Below are positions 3,137-47,335 of a stretch of DNA of 64,000 bases, one piece after another. The stretch is from Nitrosomonas sp. (GTDB taxonomy: Bacteria; Pseudomonadota; Gammaproteobacteria; Burkholderiales; Nitrosomonadaceae). Where the stretch lies: the NCBI RefSeq assembly GCF_021731985.1, contig NZ_JAKFWH010000082.1, positions 1 through 64,000 of the forward strand, given 5' to 3'. The notes beneath the pieces were generated by a model that was not told where the DNA came from, made no database searches, and saw only the letters and a program-made list of their open reading frames with translations. How positions within the stretch are numbered: the stretch's first letter is position 1; every line of letters begins with the position of its first letter. The position numbers and the translations under genes were made by a program.

Positions 3137-4309
3137 ATGACCACTGATCATTATGACATCGTTATCATTGGCGGTGGCCCGGTGGGAATGGCTCTGGCAC
3201 TTGCTCTGCGCGATACCGGTGTTTCAAATTTACTACTCGAAGCACGTGGTTTACCCGAAAAAGACGAAGACCCTCGTCCATTAGCACTATCGCATGGAAG
3301 TCGTCTGATATTGCATCGCTTAGGGGTATGGAGCGAACTGGCACAAAATACTCCAATTACTACTATCCATATATCCAACCGCGGCAATTTCGGCCAAACT
3401 GTTTTAACACCGGATGATGCAGGTGTTCCAGCATTAGGATATGTAGTGAATTACCATGACCTTTTTTGCTCCATGCACAAGAAATTAACCGGAAAGAAGT
3501 CTGACTACATTGCTGGTGCAATTGTCACTCAACTCGATACCAATGCAAATTCAGGCTATGTCTATTTCGATTACCAGGGCAAGCAAGACAAGGTTTCAGC
3601 TAAACTACTTGTTCTCGCCGATGGCGGCCAGCTGGCCAAGCAAATACCTGATATCACTTATCAAACATATGATTATCAGCAATGGGCCATTGTTGCAAAT
3701 GTTCAAGCTGAAAAAAAGCAGACAGGTATAGCTTACGAACGTTTTACAATTGATGGGCCGGTTGCATTGCTTCCAAACGGTGATGATTTCGCTTTAGTGT
3801 GGACTGTAAGTCCCGAGGCAGTGAAAGAAATTACCGCGCTGAATGATGCAGATTTTCTGATTCGGTTACATCAGCATTTTGGTAATAGGCTCGGAAAATT
3901 CATTAAAACAGGAAAAAGATCTGCATTTCCATTGGCACTCAAATACGCAACACTGGCCACAACTCAAAGAGTTGCACTAATTGGCAATGCGGCCCAAACA
4001 TTACATCCCGTCGCAGGGCAAGGGTTTAATCTGGGCCTAAGAGATGCCTATGAATTGGCTTGCGAAATTATCAATACACAATGCTCGGCTCTGGAGATTG
4101 GCACACCGACTATGTTATCAAGGTACCGTCAAAGTAGACACATTGATAGTAATGCCGGCAGACTATTTACAGATTCATTGATCAAGCTTTTTTCTAATGA
4201 AAATAAAATACTCAAACACGCTTGTGGAGCCGGGTTAAGTACATTGAACTGTATCCCGCCCCTCAAAAGATTTGTTGCCCGTCGTATGATATTTGGAGCC
4301 AGAGGATAA
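3137..4309 (+). CDS. ubiH: UbiH/UbiF-family FAD-dependent ubiquinone-biosynthesis hydroxylase
   Basis: Flavoprotein monooxygenase of 390 residues that hydroxylates the ring of a ubiquinone precursor at or near the inner membrane. The N-terminal dinucleotide-binding loop is IVIIGGGPVGMALALAL. A middle PRPLALSHGSR segment matches the UbiH-type motif, and near residue 283 the FAD-binding block LIGNAAQTLHPVAGQGFNLG is the hallmark of the UbiH/COQ6 family; the usual His before TLHP is Gln here. Length is normal. UbiH, UbiF and UbiI cannot be told apart from motifs alone, so the symbol means family. It stands alone, 177 bases before dusB. Confidence 0.85.
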   Translation: MTTDHYDIVIIGGGPVGMALALALRDTGVSNLLLEARGLPEKDEDPRPLALSHGSRLILHRLGVWSELAQNTPITTIHISNRGNFGQTVLTPDDAGVPALGYVVNYHDLFCSMHKKLTGKKSDYIAGAIVTQLDTNANSGYVYFDYQGKQDKVSAKLLVLADGGQLAKQIPDITYQTYDYQQWAIVANVQAEKKQTGIAYERFTIDGPVALLPNGDDFALVWTVSPEAVKEITALNDADFLIRLHQHFGNRLGKFIKTGKRSAFPLALKYATLATTQRVALIGNAAQTLHPVAGQGFNLGLRDAYELACEIINTQCSALEIGTPTMLSRYRQSRHIDSNAGRLFTDSLIKLFSNENKILKHACGAGLSTLNCIPPLKRFVARRMIFGARG

Positions 4310-41227: not shown

Positions 41228-41422
41228 ATTGCGAGAATTACAATTCTGGCATCTTTGGCTGGGCGGCCCAGTCTTGAACATAACGTCTTATAGTAATTCT
41301 AGGACTACTCATTCCACGGGATGCAATTTCTCAGTTTTACTCAGAGATTATTGGAATCAAGAATCATGCCCGGCGGTGCACTTCTGACACAGCGTAAACT
41401 CGTATCTGGTGCAGTACAGTGA
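41228..41422. other. Intergenic, edge of decayed region
   Basis: About 195 bases after lgt. There is a short palindrome CTGGGCGGCCCAG but no T-run. Nothing else recognised. Sequence beyond 41423 belongs to a decayed transposase. Confidence 0.4.
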
Positions 41423-42686: not shown

Positions 42687-43229
42687 TCAACTATCCGGAA
42701 CAACTTCAACCAGCGGGATTAGTGTTTGCCGGCATGTCTCATACTGAATAACTACTCGCTGCGCGTCTGCGGCGAGTTCCCAAAGATCTTGTTCAATCTG
42801 GCTGGGAAGTCTGATTCGACCGGTTTCGCCACCACTGATGCCGGCACTCTCAGTTTTTCTTGTTGTTTCATTGGCACTATTTCTGCAGTTTTTTGCATCG
42901 ATCCACAGCCCGCGATTAGTGCGGTTAATATCAGCAAGATCACGAGACAGCTTATCTTTTGCTTTGATTTCATTGTTTAATGCTCCGGTAAGTCCATCAA
43001 CTTGTTTTTCATGCTCCGCTGCCATCGCTTGCGCGGCATCGGCGACCGCTTTAGCGAGTTCTTTGCTGCGAGTGGCTTCCTTGCTTTCCCATACCGCTCG
43101 TTCTGCCAGGCGCCCATCTTCATAAATATTGTCGTGGATGGTCCCGGCCATATGCCAAACAAACCAGGTGCAGGCAATAATCAACGCTGCCCAGAGTGCA
43201 AATTTGATTAAAGTGGTGTATCCAGTCAT
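42687..43229 (-). CDS. Phage inner-membrane spanin (Rz-like)
   Basis: Protein of 180 residues. The ATG at 43229 has a good AGGAG ribosome site six bases ahead; an in-frame ATG at 43271 lacks one. A single N-terminal membrane helix (about 5-26) is followed by a long Ala/Lys/Glu coiled coil (about 40-110), the plan of an i-spanin. A second gene with a lipobox lies inside it in another frame (42752-42973), which is the classical Rz/Rz1 arrangement. Spanins fuse inner and outer membranes at the last step of phage lysis. No endolysin, holin or tail gene is next to it. Confidence 0.75.
   Translation of the reverse strand: MTGYTTLIKFALWAALIIACTWFVWHMAGTIHDNIYEDGRLAERAVWESKEATRSKELAKAVADAAQAMAAEHEKQVDGLTGALNNEIKAKDKLSRDLADINRTNRGLWIDAKNCRNSANETTRKTESAGISGGETGRIRLPSQIEQDLWELAADAQRVVIQYETCRQTLIPLVEVVPDS
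42752..42973 (-). CDS. Phage outer-membrane spanin lipoprotein (Rz1-like), nested
   Basis: Protein of 73 residues, wholly inside the Rz gene in a different frame. Signal with lipobox LIAGC (Cys23) and a short mature part of 51 residues with several Pro. This matches o-spanins, which contact the i-spanin coiled coil across the periplasm. Nested overlap of this kind is known from lambda-like phages and is hard to get by chance. Confidence 0.72.
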   Translation of the reverse strand: MKSKQKISCLVILLILTALIAGCGSMQKTAEIVPMKQQEKLRVPASVVAKPVESDFPARLNKIFGNSPQTRSE

Positions 43230-43653
43230 ATCAACTCCTATTGCGCAAATTGGAATAAATCTTAAACGCATAGCCCATCATCAATGATATCAGCGTCTGA
43301 AGCGGCGATGAACCTCGAACTATTTGTCAAACCATATCATAAATTTAATCAATTGAAGCATTGCCAATATATAAAAACTGCGAAACGATCAGGCTACGTT
43401 ATCTCCCGAGCAAAGGTGCCGGAGGCCGATTCCAAAACTGAATATTGCTGACGATGAGTGTACCCGGCAGCACAGATGACAGGTAATTGATCGCGGGTAA
43501 AAAACCGTGTAATCGGCAGACTGTACATAATTTCCTAGGTCTGTGGGTTTTGTGAATTTTACCCGACTCGGTGGGTTTTCAACAGCCTGTTAAGGGAGCA
43601 AGCAGTGGAATTCGCAGCCAGTGTGGCGATTACATCAATACCCTGATACAGAG
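43230..43653. other. Intergenic between spanin and HicB genes
   Basis: About 424 bases. A minus-strand open stretch of about 50 codons (43381-43550) has no start codon and no recognised product. At about 43573-43590 the plus strand reads GTTTTCAACAGCCTGTTA, similar to ends of some IS elements, but I find no matching second end. Confidence 0.4.
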
Positions 43654-43893
43654 TTATGCAACGTTTTGCATGCGATTAGCAAAATCACGACCCGATGTCG
43701 CTGGCGGCAAGGGTTTTTTGTCCTCCCGGTACAGCATTATTGCTTCTTCGACAATCTGGCAAAGCTCTTCGAATACTTGTCTCTCGTCATCGCCGTGACA
43801 GCCGCCGAGAATCAATCCAGGCGCGCTCCCGACGTAGCATTGATCTTCTTCAGACCACTCGACAATCTTTGCGTATTTCGCACTGTCTTTCAT
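43654..43893 (-). CDS. hicB: HicB-type antitoxin
   Basis: Protein of 79 residues with the degraded RNase H-like fold of HicB: AKIVEWSEEDQCYVGSAPGL then ILGGCHGDDERQVFEELCQI. No C-terminal DNA-binding domain is visible, so this is the short form. Overlaps hicA by four bases (toxin first, then antitoxin). It should bind and block HicA. Confidence 0.82.
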   Translation of the reverse strand: MKDSAKYAKIVEWSEEDQCYVGSAPGLILGGCHGDDERQVFEELCQIVEEAIMLYREDKKPLPPATSGRDFANRMQNVA

Positions 43894-44087
43894 TTCTTCG
43901 ATTCCTCAAAGGCCAAGCGTACTGCCCGGATCTGGTAATGTTTTGCATCATCGCCTAGTTTACCGGAAATTGTCACGGGCTTCTGGGTCCTTGAGTGGGA
44001 AAAATTTCGATGACTTCCTTTGCCACCGCGATTCACGAACCCGGCCTTTTCCAATTCATCAACCAAATCTTTTATTTTGGGTGGCAT
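43890..44087 (-). CDS. hicA: HicA-type mRNA interferase toxin
   Basis: Small basic protein of 65 residues, double-stranded RNA-binding-like fold. I take the ATG at 44087 (MPPKIKDLVDELEKAGFVNR), because the longer frame to 44162 adds unrelated residues. The catalytic His lies in GGKGSHRNFSH (His26). It ends KHYQIRAVRLAFEESKK, a typical close. Cleaves mRNA when free of HicB (family knowledge). Confidence 0.88.
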   Translation of the reverse strand: MPPKIKDLVDELEKAGFVNRGGKGSHRNFSHSRTQKPVTISGKLGDDAKHYQIRAVRLAFEESKK

Positions 44088-44297
44088 CAGTCTAACTCTA
44101 TTTTGATGGGCACATAATCTGGATGGAAGAATACCTCGCGATTTCTCCTCCAACACCACCATGCATACGGGGCCATGTACGGTGATTCAATGAACAACAT
44201 ACCTGTCATCCTGCAAAATACGATGGTAGACTCTTTAATTACTTAATTCGCGCGCTTTAGTTTTCCGATACCAGGAGCTGGTGAAAACAGCGCTAGA

Positions 44298-45227
44298 CTA
44301 CCTCCTGTAATAAGGTAATTCGCTTTGGCTATTCAAGTTACGATCTGTGTCACAAGATGGCATAATGGAAATTACCAATAACGCAAATGCAATTCCAGCA
44401 ATCCAAGACATAACAACTGATAGCTCTCGATAACTACCGCCTTTATCGCGAAGCCAAGGAATTGACGTAAGGTAGACGATGCCTAATATGATGAAAAAGA
44501 TAATCTCCCCAACTGGAGAATCTTTACTTGCTGCACTCCAACCATCAGTTACACCTGCACTCATGAATTTGAATAATGCAAGCGCACTGGCTGCAAGGAA
44601 AAGAACGAGGCCAATTACGCCAATTGGGTTTTCTTTTGTAATACCCGCAAGCGATTCTTTCTCCTTTTTCTCTTCTAGGATAGTCTTTTCGCGAGCTTTA
44701 ACCCGTTCTTGCTCTATCTGTATTTCTTGTGTTATCTGCTCAATTTCTAAGCCAAACGCTTGAGAAAGGTTATCAAAACACGCTTTGCATAATATGTCGT
44801 TAGCCCATCCTTTGGGGGCATTTGTGTAGTCAAATACCTCAATCTTGAACTTCATATCCGCTTTTCCGCTCATCTCACGAAACGGTACCATTTTATCAAA
44901 AAATGCGCGAGCATCCACTATCTCTTTCTCGGTAAGATCATGATAAGTTGACGGAACAATTGCGTATTGCTTTGAGCAGCAAGCGCAAATCAATTTTCTA
45001 CCGCTCCGTTTTTCCCCGAACGGCTCCTCACCCCAATAGATTTCCGCTTTTTCGTCTGCTTTACGTGGATTGTCCTTACGGTATTGTTCTCTAATAGCAA
45101 AGCACGATTTGCATAATTGTGAAGCAATCTCTCTCTTGTCAGAGGATCTGGCTTGTACTTCACAATGTCGGCACTCAAAAACTTCTAACGGGGTTCGGCG
45201 TAATTCAAGTGTAGAAGTGGTGTACAT
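44298..45227 (-). CDS. Unrecognised protein: cysteine pairs, coiled coil, three membrane helices
   Basis: Protein of 309 residues that I cannot assign. N-terminal half has cysteine pairs arranged as for zinc ribbons: Cys19/22, Cys39/42, Cys81/84 and Cys147/150. Then a Glu/Lys-rich coiled coil (about 160-195) leads to three membrane helices (about 202-222, 240-258, 270-290). The arrangement suggests a cytoplasmic metal-binding sensor on a membrane anchor. It lies in the accessory stretch between hicA and a YkgJ-type protein, all minus strand, but gaps (210 and 65 bases) leave operon status open. Domain identity would need a profile search. Confidence 0.6.
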   Translation of the reverse strand: MYTTSTLELRRTPLEVFECRHCEVQARSSDKREIASQLCKSCFAIREQYRKDNPRKADEKAEIYWGEEPFGEKRSGRKLICACCSKQYAIVPSTYHDLTEKEIVDARAFFDKMVPFREMSGKADMKFKIEVFDYTNAPKGWANDILCKACFDNLSQAFGLEIEQITQEIQIEQERVKAREKTILEEKKEKESLAGITKENPIGVIGLVLFLAASALALFKFMSAGVTDGWSAASKDSPVGEIIFFIILGIVYLTSIPWLRDKGGSYRELSVVMSWIAGIAFALLVISIMPSCDTDRNLNSQSELPYYRR

Positions 45228-45292
45228 TGTCGAGCGCCCAATATCGTAGTTATAGAAAAGCTAATGTCTGAATTTTCCGGCGTTACGCGGCT

Positions 45293-45961
45293 TTATCGCT
45301 CAGTGCCCGATGGAATAATGAATTGGACCATATTATCAAAGTGATCCATTGTCGTGGCGATTTGTGTCCAATCGTACAAATGCATTTCTCGAGCGCTCTT
45401 CCCGATAAACCCAGACTCGAATGCCTTTCGTTTCGCCGTTGAACTCTTGAGTTGGTAGTAATCAAGTAAGCGCATAGCAACGGGACGAATGACTGTTTCT
45501 CTTGGCAGCGACATTACGTCTTGAGGACGTGTTTCGAGTACATCTTCGCCTACTTCGCATGGCTTCGACTTGACTAAAAATTGCCTACAGATCAACGGCC
45601 GGATAGGGTAAATGGAGCAAGAGCGCTCAACTAAAAATGGACACTCAAGCCGACTGCGATGTTCTATTAGTCGTATCTTTACCTGAGCACGAATTTCACC
45701 CAGTAGCACTTCTGATACGTACCAAGAAATGACCATCAACTCGGGTTCAGTAATTGGTACGGTAGGTTTCAAACAGCAAGCATGACAGCCTCGGTGGCAC
45801 GAAGGCACTATGCCTTTCTTCGCAGTTTTCTGAAGATGTGCTTCGACTTGGGTATCACTGATGTAGAAAGTATCGAGAATCCCACTGAGCCAAGAATATT
45901 GGGCTTCAGCTTGAGGCGAGGAATAGCGAGTAGTCATGATGTTCTCTGCGAAACCCAACAT
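45293..45961 (-). CDS. YkgJ-family cysteine-cluster protein
   Basis: Protein of 222 residues with the cysteine-cluster signature: Cys55, Cys59, Cys62, Cys63, then Cys107, Cys115, Cys125 and Cys135 (HRGCHACC and RPLICRQF). The family is predicted to bind zinc or an Fe-S cluster; function is unknown. The first Met gives a fair N-terminus. It is about 65 bases upstream of the cysteine-pair membrane protein on the same strand, so the two may be co-expressed. Confidence 0.8.
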   Translation of the reverse strand: MLGFAENIMTTRYSSPQAEAQYSWLSGILDTFYISDTQVEAHLQKTAKKGIVPSCHRGCHACCLKPTVPITEPELMVISWYVSEVLLGEIRAQVKIRLIEHRSRLECPFLVERSCSIYPIRPLICRQFLVKSKPCEVGEDVLETRPQDVMSLPRETVIRPVAMRLLDYYQLKSSTAKRKAFESGFIGKSAREMHLYDWTQIATTMDHFDNMVQFIIPSGTER

Positions 45962-46072
45962 AATATATACGACACCCGATGTCTTATAAAAACCGCAAAT
46001 TGTCGTATAGTCATAAAAAACTCAAATTATTCTACTGTTAATTATCGGTCTACTATAAGCAAGCACGAACGA

Positions 46073-47335
46073 TCAATGCTCCCTGAGCTTAATTTCAATT
46101 TTAGGTGTCCGGTGTTGCTCGGACGAAGGCAGGCGATTAAGTCCTAGTACCGTAATGCGGTGCGTGGCGTTGAAGCTGGGTGCGCCATCCTGGTCGCGCA
46201 GAATGGACGATACTTTGTATTCCAAGCTGTTGGCGTCCGGATTGAAGTGGATATCATGGATCCAGATGCCTGCCCGTTGCACTTGTTGATGCTCGCATTC
46301 GTAGGAGAGATCCCAGCCGGTCAGCATCGGCACGGCATAGTCGTAGGGTAAATCATTGATGCGGAATGTCTGGGTGCGAACAATGCCGTCGGTATTTTTG
46401 CGGCAGGTCGCGGTTTTCCCGGCGCGGGGATTCAGTGCCAGGAAGTCTGCGCGCAATTTGACGCTGCTGCCGCGAATCTGGGCGGCGCGTGTTTTAATGC
46501 GGTGCGTGCGCGTATCGTTATCTTTGAAAATGGTTTGAGTGACCCAGTGTGGACTGCCGTCCCGGTTAGGTGAAGCGCCGGTTTGAGACAGGCTGTAGGC
46601 AGCTTGCAGCAAACGATAATCGGCGCGATCCGCCCATTTGCAGGGGGGAAAACGTAATTCGCATTCGAAGGTGTCATCAAACTGAAAATCAAATCCGCGC
46701 GGAATGATCGCAATCACATCATTGCCTTTCAGCGTGCCTTTGCTTCCCAGGTTTTCCACAGTAGCCACTGCGCCTTGAGTTTTATTCTGCTGCGCCGATG
46801 CTTCAATACCGTTGTAATCCCATTCTATCGCAGCATCAAACCAAACTGAGCGATAGCCGAATCCACTATAAAATACACAAAACTCGTACGCATCGGCACG
46901 ATTCTGGTCATCCAGTTTGCCTTGTACTTCAAACACCAGGAAGGAAGAACCGGCGCTCTTAACCAGCTTGCTGTGGATGATGTCCGCTTTCATCGAATTC
47001 ACTTCGCGATCTTTTTGCAGATAGCGTAGATCCCAGCCATTTAGCACGACGGTCGCACTATCCACGTAGCCGGGCATTTCGATCCATTGCAGCACGGTTG
47101 CCGCCTCTGCACCATTATCCCGCTGCATGCATTTGCTTCCTTCAATCAGGATGAATTTTCCCTCATCCTCAAAAACCGTTTTCCCTTCCGATTTAAAGGA
47201 GAGTTGTTCAAAAGGTGTCGCGATCTTGGCTTTATCCGTTGAATCAATCGTTTTCTTTACTTGTGTTTTGGTTGCACAGGCAGAAAACGCGAATAGTATG
47301 AATAGCCCAAGAAGTATGTACAGATAGCGAATCAT
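46073..47335 (-). CDS. Lipoprotein with a duplicated domain
   Basis: Predicted lipoprotein of 420 residues. Signal and lipobox FSAC (Cys20). The mature part holds two similar halves: residues about 65-160 with VVLNGWDLRYLQKDREV then SSFLVFEVQGKLDDQNRADA, and residues about 306-400 with MLTGWDLSYECEHQQVQ then NSLEYKVSSILRDQDGAPSF. Both have GWDLxY at the same relative place (residues 100 and 340). I recognise no family. It is beyond the YkgJ gene by 111 bases and next to the conserved rsmA operon by 134 bases. Outer-membrane attachment is inferred. Confidence 0.7.
   Translation of the reverse strand: MIRYLYILLGLFILFAFSACATKTQVKKTIDSTDKAKIATPFEQLSFKSEGKTVFEDEGKFILIEGSKCMQRDNGAEAATVLQWIEMPGYVDSATVVLNGWDLRYLQKDREVNSMKADIIHSKLVKSAGSSFLVFEVQGKLDDQNRADAYEFCVFYSGFGYRSVWFDAAIEWDYNGIEASAQQNKTQGAVATVENLGSKGTLKGNDVIAIIPRGFDFQFDDTFECELRFPPCKWADRADYRLLQAAYSLSQTGASPNRDGSPHWVTQTIFKDNDTRTHRIKTRAAQIRGSSVKLRADFLALNPRAGKTATCRKNTDGIVRTQTFRINDLPYDYAVPMLTGWDLSYECEHQQVQRAGIWIHDIHFNPDANSLEYKVSSILRDQDGAPSFNATHRITVLGLNRLPSSEQHRTPKIEIKLREH

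Follow-up and report, generated by a model that had tools for sequence, protein, structure and literature searches.

Leon and Roy are said to have described, in 2003, a working integrase of Nitrosomonas europaea. A search of the literature by title and beginning of abstract, with most subscription journals outside its scope, returned no paper on dispersed integrase-less attI sites in Nitrosomonas. According to PMC2426708, pseudogenes make up nearly a third of integrase genes; CALINs have been proposed to be degraded integrons (PMC9024848), and in Xanthomonas the integrase has been lost and cassettes are retained (PMC12444791, which also describes membrane proteins as common among cassettes). 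For proteins that combine a zinc ribbon with membrane segments, PMC3710099 lists one example, a zinc ribbon with two transmembrane segments fused to HEPN.

We analysed a gene for a 309-amino-acid protein, the target, within a 64,000-nucleotide window, by which we mean the whole stretch of Nitrosomonas DNA under study. The target lies in a variable slot together with YkgJ-type and HicAB genes, and these odd neighbours may be understood because the gene appears to occupy a gene-capture slot, that is, an attI-like site without an integrase of its own. The features referred to below are as follows.

42687 to 43271, minus strand: Rz-like spanin gene (PHROG lysis, E 4.5e-9), also present in genome G008 (L061)
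43523 to 45959, minus strand: variable slot of 2.4 kb, missing from genomes G016 and G008, in which both flanks are common to the window
43654 to 43893, minus strand: HicB-like partner gene, with a weak PHROG HicB-like match (E 0.094)
43890 to 44162, minus strand: HicA toxin gene, in our reading likely to start at 44087, two nucleotides past GTTAGAC
44090 to 44298, minus strand: tentative candidate for a long attC (209 nucleotides) past the target, with GTCTAGC at the stop codon and GTTAGAC just before HicA
44298 to 45227, minus strand: target ORF, 309 amino acids, ATG start, with a zinc-ribbon-like N-terminal part, a charged helix and three membrane segments
44361 to 44627, minus strand: target residues 201 to 289, three membrane segments; in another genus a cassette gene encodes this module alone (116 amino acids)
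44628 to 44753, minus strand: target residues 159 to 200, a charged, probably helical or coiled-coil linker
44754 to 45227, minus strand: target residues 1 to 158, four CxxC pairs (19, 39, 81, 147) in two similar halves
45260 to 45328, minus strand: putative decayed attC at the YkgJ/target junction, a pairwise match to an attC of contig C81 that is weak by other methods
45293 to 45961, minus strand: YkgJ-type CxxCxxCC gene, the putative first cassette after attI, in our reading likely to start at an inner ATG at 45937
45953 to 46012, minus strand: attI-like site, with the core GTTGGGT at 45953 to 45959
46073 to 47335, minus strand: lipoprotein-like gene that anchors the platform, with its stop codon 60 nucleotides before the attI-like site and no Pfam family

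The locus resembles integron cassettes of unknown function in being a gene-sized unit behind an attI-like site, with putative attC-like junctions and content that varies among relatives, but differs from them in that the slot has no integrase in cis and its attC sites are decayed or unclear. With integrase-less cassette groups it shares cassettes without an integrase; unlike them, the slot keeps a recognisable attI-like site and has fewer than two clear attC sites. The same genome (G000) carries an integron on contig C81 with the same type of attI and an attC related to the YkgJ/target junction, but that integron has an integrase gene (in two reading frames). We also note that the C81 integron (L071) has two attC sites, with cassettes that include an ORF we read as DNA-cytosine-methyltransferase-like. 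The protein itself is like zinc-ribbon proteins with membrane segments in having CxxC/CxxC pairs followed by membrane helices, and unlike them in that no zinc ribbon with a solved structure or a profile matches its sequence. We consider it very likely that the target originated as an integron cassette. Taken as a whole, the observations are probably best explained by a cassette at an integrase-less attI-like site that encodes an inner-membrane, zinc-ribbon-like protein.

A scan of GTDB genomes with the single target protein, the reach of which is limited to close relatives, returned one relative, L010, from a betaproteobacterial metagenome assembly of another genus. The two proteins are 83% identical across all 309 target residues, and the similarity in DNA runs from 7 nucleotides before the ATG to 41 nucleotides past the stop codon and then ends. 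Nucleotide differences number 33, 22 and 59 at the three codon positions and, because dN is 0.08–0.09 against a dS of 0.28–0.38, the target is a genuine protein kept under purifying selection. The initial annotation had described four cysteine pairs, a coiled coil and three membrane helices, and had suggested two zinc ribbons. Eight of the ten cysteines do form four CxxC pairs, starting at residues 19, 39, 81 and 147 (at least four such pairs were reached by 1 of 20,000 shuffles of the protein), and nine of the ten, including all nine in the N-terminal part, are kept in L010, with C292 lost. Hydrophobic segments were computed at residues 201–219, 238–256 and 271–289, in agreement with the three helices. 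Residues 159–200 are 45% charged, and AlphaFold, run on the single target sequence, placed one helix at 164–199 with low confidence. The target has the paired, conserved CxxC knuckles of a zinc ribbon, also kept in L010, and the halves of its N-terminal part look alike by eye (LCKSCF and LCKACF, with an underlying 23-nucleotide DNA repeat, 87%). Structure prediction, which the annotation had proposed as a check, gave two poor AlphaFold models (mean pLDDT 46.3 and 40.1); folding of the N-terminal part into two zinc ribbons is plausible.

The target is likely to be a membrane protein with its N-terminus inside and with structural zinc. It would reside in the inner membrane, with a cytosolic domain of two zinc-ribbon-like CxxC/CxxC units that a helical linker would join to a three-helix membrane module. 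The N-terminal part is assigned to the cytosol because of its CxxC pairs, taken to be reduced. In such a topology the C-terminus would lie outside, and the loop that joins helix 2 to helix 3 (RDKGGSYRE) would fall inside, the latter consistent with the positive-inside rule.

Searches with Pfam, NCBIfam and PHROG profiles gave no convincing family match to the target. A PADLOC profile matched it (E 0.001, 15.3 bits) within the helix and membrane part only; the match is probably compositional because the 83% identical L010 protein matched no PADLOC family at E 0.1, and membership of the target in a known PADLOC anti-phage system is not supported. The best match to a solved structure (E 0.00053, 22 bits), to the membrane segments of an oxidoreductase subunit, was also taken as compositional. 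The annotation had recognised no family and had asked for a profile search; among the families searched, none that has been described was found for the target. It is also possible that the target is a phage-defence or abortive-infection effector, in which the zinc-ribbon part senses and the membrane module kills. The combination of a soluble sensor with membrane segments would suit such a role, as would the occurrence, in a cassette of two ORFs, of the membrane module as a small protein of its own and, at face value, the weak PADLOC match, but the failure of L010 to share that match argues against it, and we regard this explanation as unlikely. A wider role as an effector of stress or phage response is similarly doubtful. 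A membrane sensor or effector, as the annotation put it, is conceivable from the layout of the protein.

Single-sequence searches of the own genome and 100 relatives, of 368 genomes of the class and of 397 of the phylum (overlapping sets) returned only the gene itself and weak partial matches. These partial matches were taken as chance; the match in the class, L002, is a ferredoxin-like ORF in our reading. A two-sequence profile of the target and L010, run on 399 genomes of the order, matched G956 and G1141. We take G956 to be the genome of L010, because its match agrees with L010 in length and position. In G1141, an open frame of 122 amino acids aligned with target residues 196–309 only (E 2.4e-18 by profile), and the gene product, 116 amino acids with three hydrophobic segments, shows 40% identity to the membrane part of the target in the alignment. 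The membrane module appears to be a separable unit, because G1141 has it without the N-terminal part and with a second ORF sharing the cassette. This second ORF (L012:1839–2312, 157 amino acids) matches no Pfam family at cut-off and is a possible partner. A profile of the membrane module matched only the source genome among 303 genomes of the class, and a target profile matched only G1141 among 21 genomes around it. Plasmids and phages gave no match to the target at E 1, two scans of viral contigs found no relative of it, and the 116-amino-acid relative had nothing better than matches at E 0.3–0.6, to three plasmid records and one phage. Because few relatives were found, and none among 100 genomes related to that of the window (0/100), the target gene appears to be rare and patchy. 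The proteins in hand suggest a small modular membrane-protein family with full-length and membrane-module-only forms.

The borders of the slot were established by comparing the lgt–ksgA stretch with 60 relatives and aligning the best ones. Between 43523 and 45959 the window has HicB, HicA, the target and YkgJ, and behind the same attI-like sequence three genomes of the same genus (G016, G008 and G020) carry other DNA: about 590 nucleotides in G016, 730 in G008 and, in G020, DNA that diverges after a right flank in common with the window. The 5′ border of the array lies at a GTTRRRY core beside the attI-like site (GTTGGGT, 45953–45959), and such a core is found at the border in three of the four slots, reading GTTAGGG in G016 and GTTGGGC in G020; the G008 slot has no intact core at its border. 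On contig C1 of G020, about 0.3 Mb separates the lipoprotein gene and attI-like site from the match on the ksgA side; lipoprotein gene and ksgA side are adjacent in the window, G008 and G016, and G020 thus has a rearrangement near the platform. A proposed correspondence between the gene in the G008 slot and the cassette gene that comes first in G1141 (23% over 116 amino acids, E 0.001 in a single comparison) was rejected as too weak.

The 60 nucleotides before the slot border resemble the stretch between the integrase and the first cassette of the C81 integron, with a score of 56 against a mean of 11.8 and a maximum of 33 in 5000 shuffles; a stricter local search of the window, with the attI of C81 as query, did not place the slot among its best eight positions. 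We built two attI models, a first-round model (R1) that included the slot sites and a second (R2) of 16 sites from other genomes, none of them from the slot or from the window's genome. Six of these 16 adjoin an integrase or integrase remnant; their choice is not wholly independent because they had been found with R1. In the 64 kb, R2 found a single place, 45956–46010 on the minus strand (E 5.5e-7). It matched the site adjoining the genome's own integrase at E 2.1e-18 and the other slots at E 1.5e-6 (G020), 3.6e-4 (G008) and 0.0011 (G016). R1 matched four of 150 genomes of the order, in one of 91 genera, and nothing outside the genus. No integrase gene of the kind that marks a complete integron lies beside the attI-like site, and a TIGR02249 search of the window's contig (C6) gave no integrase match at E 1e-10.

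Evidence for attC sites was sought at both ends of the target gene. The junction at 45260–45328 aligns end to end with a C81 attC (score 73; 5000 shuffles, mean 9.7 and maximum 34) and is the best place in the window for that attC (46 against 28 for the next). We call this putative attC decayed because both outer boxes are changed, AAC to AAT and GTT to ATT. For the other eight of nine attC queries the junction was not among the six best places in the window, an attC model (R3) gave it 3.6 bits (E 3.4, not significant), and a strict attC scanner reported 10 sites in the window against 22, 12 and 16 in shuffles. The 209-nucleotide candidate on the other side of the target has 22-nucleotide arms that match at 15 of 22 positions, as reached by 118 of 20,000 shuffles of the inner part; its 16-nucleotide arms were matched by 1350 of 20,000. 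A hairpin past the target stop codon was considered as a dispersed repeat and rejected: G000 and G956 each have a single copy, and G1141 has none. Elsewhere in the window, about 143 nucleotides at 41236–41378 have further copies, 82–90% identical, both in the own genome and in several others of the genus, and are probably a dispersed repeat. The window has no tRNA and no Rfam match at the gathering threshold.

It is also possible that the slot does not derive from an integron at all, that some other recombination brought the genes in, and that the likeness to attI and attC arose by chance. The window's attC signal, weak by two of three methods, the lack of an integrase in cis and the coreless border of G008 are all consistent with such an origin. 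Chance, however, would have to account for the single R2 match in 64 kb, for the cores at three of the four borders and for the restriction of R1 to one genus, and we consider this explanation quite improbable.

The relatives of the target bear further on the cassette origin of the gene, since different content at the same site is accompanied by relatives in or beside integron arrays (in L012/L023, of the membrane module only). In G1141 (L012/L023) the membrane-module gene is flanked by attC sites at L023 1880–1942 (E 1.4e-5) and 2814–2903 (E 0.021), neither of which was part of the attC model, and the contig begins with an integron integrase fragment (E 4.2e-75). The L010 copy lies 143 nucleotides from a contig end beside an array with attC sites at 2646–2708 (E 2.4e-4) and 3190–3250 (E 0.071); its neighbouring cassettes, on the strand opposite to the copy, match GFA, Cdd1, glyoxalase, a monooxygenase family and DUF1801. 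Integron integrase matches above cut-off are present in all three genomes (G000, G956/L010 and G1141), that of G000, on C81, being split across two reading frames.

The annotation had linked the target to the adjacent toxin-antitoxin and YkgJ genes and had offered recurrent pairing with YkgJ as a check; all of them would then work as a single system, for instance an effector in the membrane that acts with a sensor and a toxin. The genes do adjoin on the same strand, and toxin-antitoxin genes also accompany the membrane-module relative, where the following cassettes carry a BrnT toxin gene (BrnT/BrnA-like) and a HicA gene (L012/L023). Toxin-antitoxin genes are, on the other hand, common in integrons, the YkgJ/target junction resembles an attC, and other DNA lies behind the same attI in three genomes of the genus. 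A tblastn search with YkgJ (E up to 0.01) against L010/L026 and L023 gave no match around these two other target relatives, with only 143 nucleotides available upstream of L010; in the DNA covered the proposed pairing did not recur, and the link to the neighbours is not supported. A single functional system is thus very unlikely, and the neighbours appear best explained as a cassette array. That the target is a prophage gene is the least credible proposal, since the spanin region, although it adjoins the slot, lies outside it and is also found in G008, which is without the target, and phages and viral contigs gave no target relative. Nested in the spanin gene in another frame is a smaller lipoprotein-like ORF (42752–42973, minus strand), as in Rz/Rz1 in our reading.

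We surveyed the genus for further attI-like sites with R1. At E 0.1, 52 of 71 genomes matched; at E below 1e-4 there were 51 sites in 32 of the 71. Five of the 51 lie within 700 nucleotides of an integrase match. Integrase matches occur in 17 of the 71 genomes, and 23 of the 32 genomes with attI-like sites have none at E 1e-50. When 31 sites were examined with their surroundings, nine had an upstream integrase or remnant by tblastn, and two more (L076 and L086) clustered by upstream DNA with integrase-bearing sites. Upstream flanks fell into 14 clusters and the downstream flanks of 30 sites into 27, L094 being left out because its site is at a contig end. A scan for attC behind the 31 sites found seven loci downstream against five upstream by the first criterion; a result of six against none was obtained only with an energy cut chosen after the result had been seen.

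Two platforms recur among the attI-like sites of the genus (L072–L101). Platform A, with the window's lipoprotein gene, is found in four genomes; its upstream flank is constant, its downstream DNA differs, and it has no adjacent integrase. Platform B, an M28-peptidase gene (Pfam E 8.3e-47 in L100) with an attI-like site, is found in six genomes with upstream similarity of 79–93%. None of the six has an integrase within 1.5 kb or an integrase match in the genus survey, and the downstream DNA differs in all five genomes with such sequence (about 190 nucleotides only in one). An inherited platform and attI with cassettes changed in trans would be the simplest account, the alternative being repeated loss of an integrase in cis, and draft assemblies limit the comparison. 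We tentatively suggest, with rather less than even confidence, a dispersed integron in the genus, in which attI platforms are inherited in place, cassettes are exchanged by a resident or passing integrase acting in trans, and the target would have been acquired, or have stayed behind, by the same route.

With a cassette at an integrase-less attI-like site as the preferred reading, the slot would be a small array of a YkgJ cassette, the target as the second and HicAB, carried by a decayed or integrase-less integron. As a working guess, the target may be an accessory adaptor or effector, its cytosolic domain sensing or binding nucleic acid or protein and its membrane module anchoring it or acting on the membrane. 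An orphan gene with suggestive neighbours would thus be explicable by its carrier, an integron slot and not an operon, and the target family is small, modular and open to direct testing. Slots like that of the window retain an attI-like sequence that is recognisable with a genus-specific model, and the pattern of cassettes that change beside a constant flank, with no integrase in cis, is relevant to the question whether integrons without an integrase are dead remnants or still receive the enzyme in trans.
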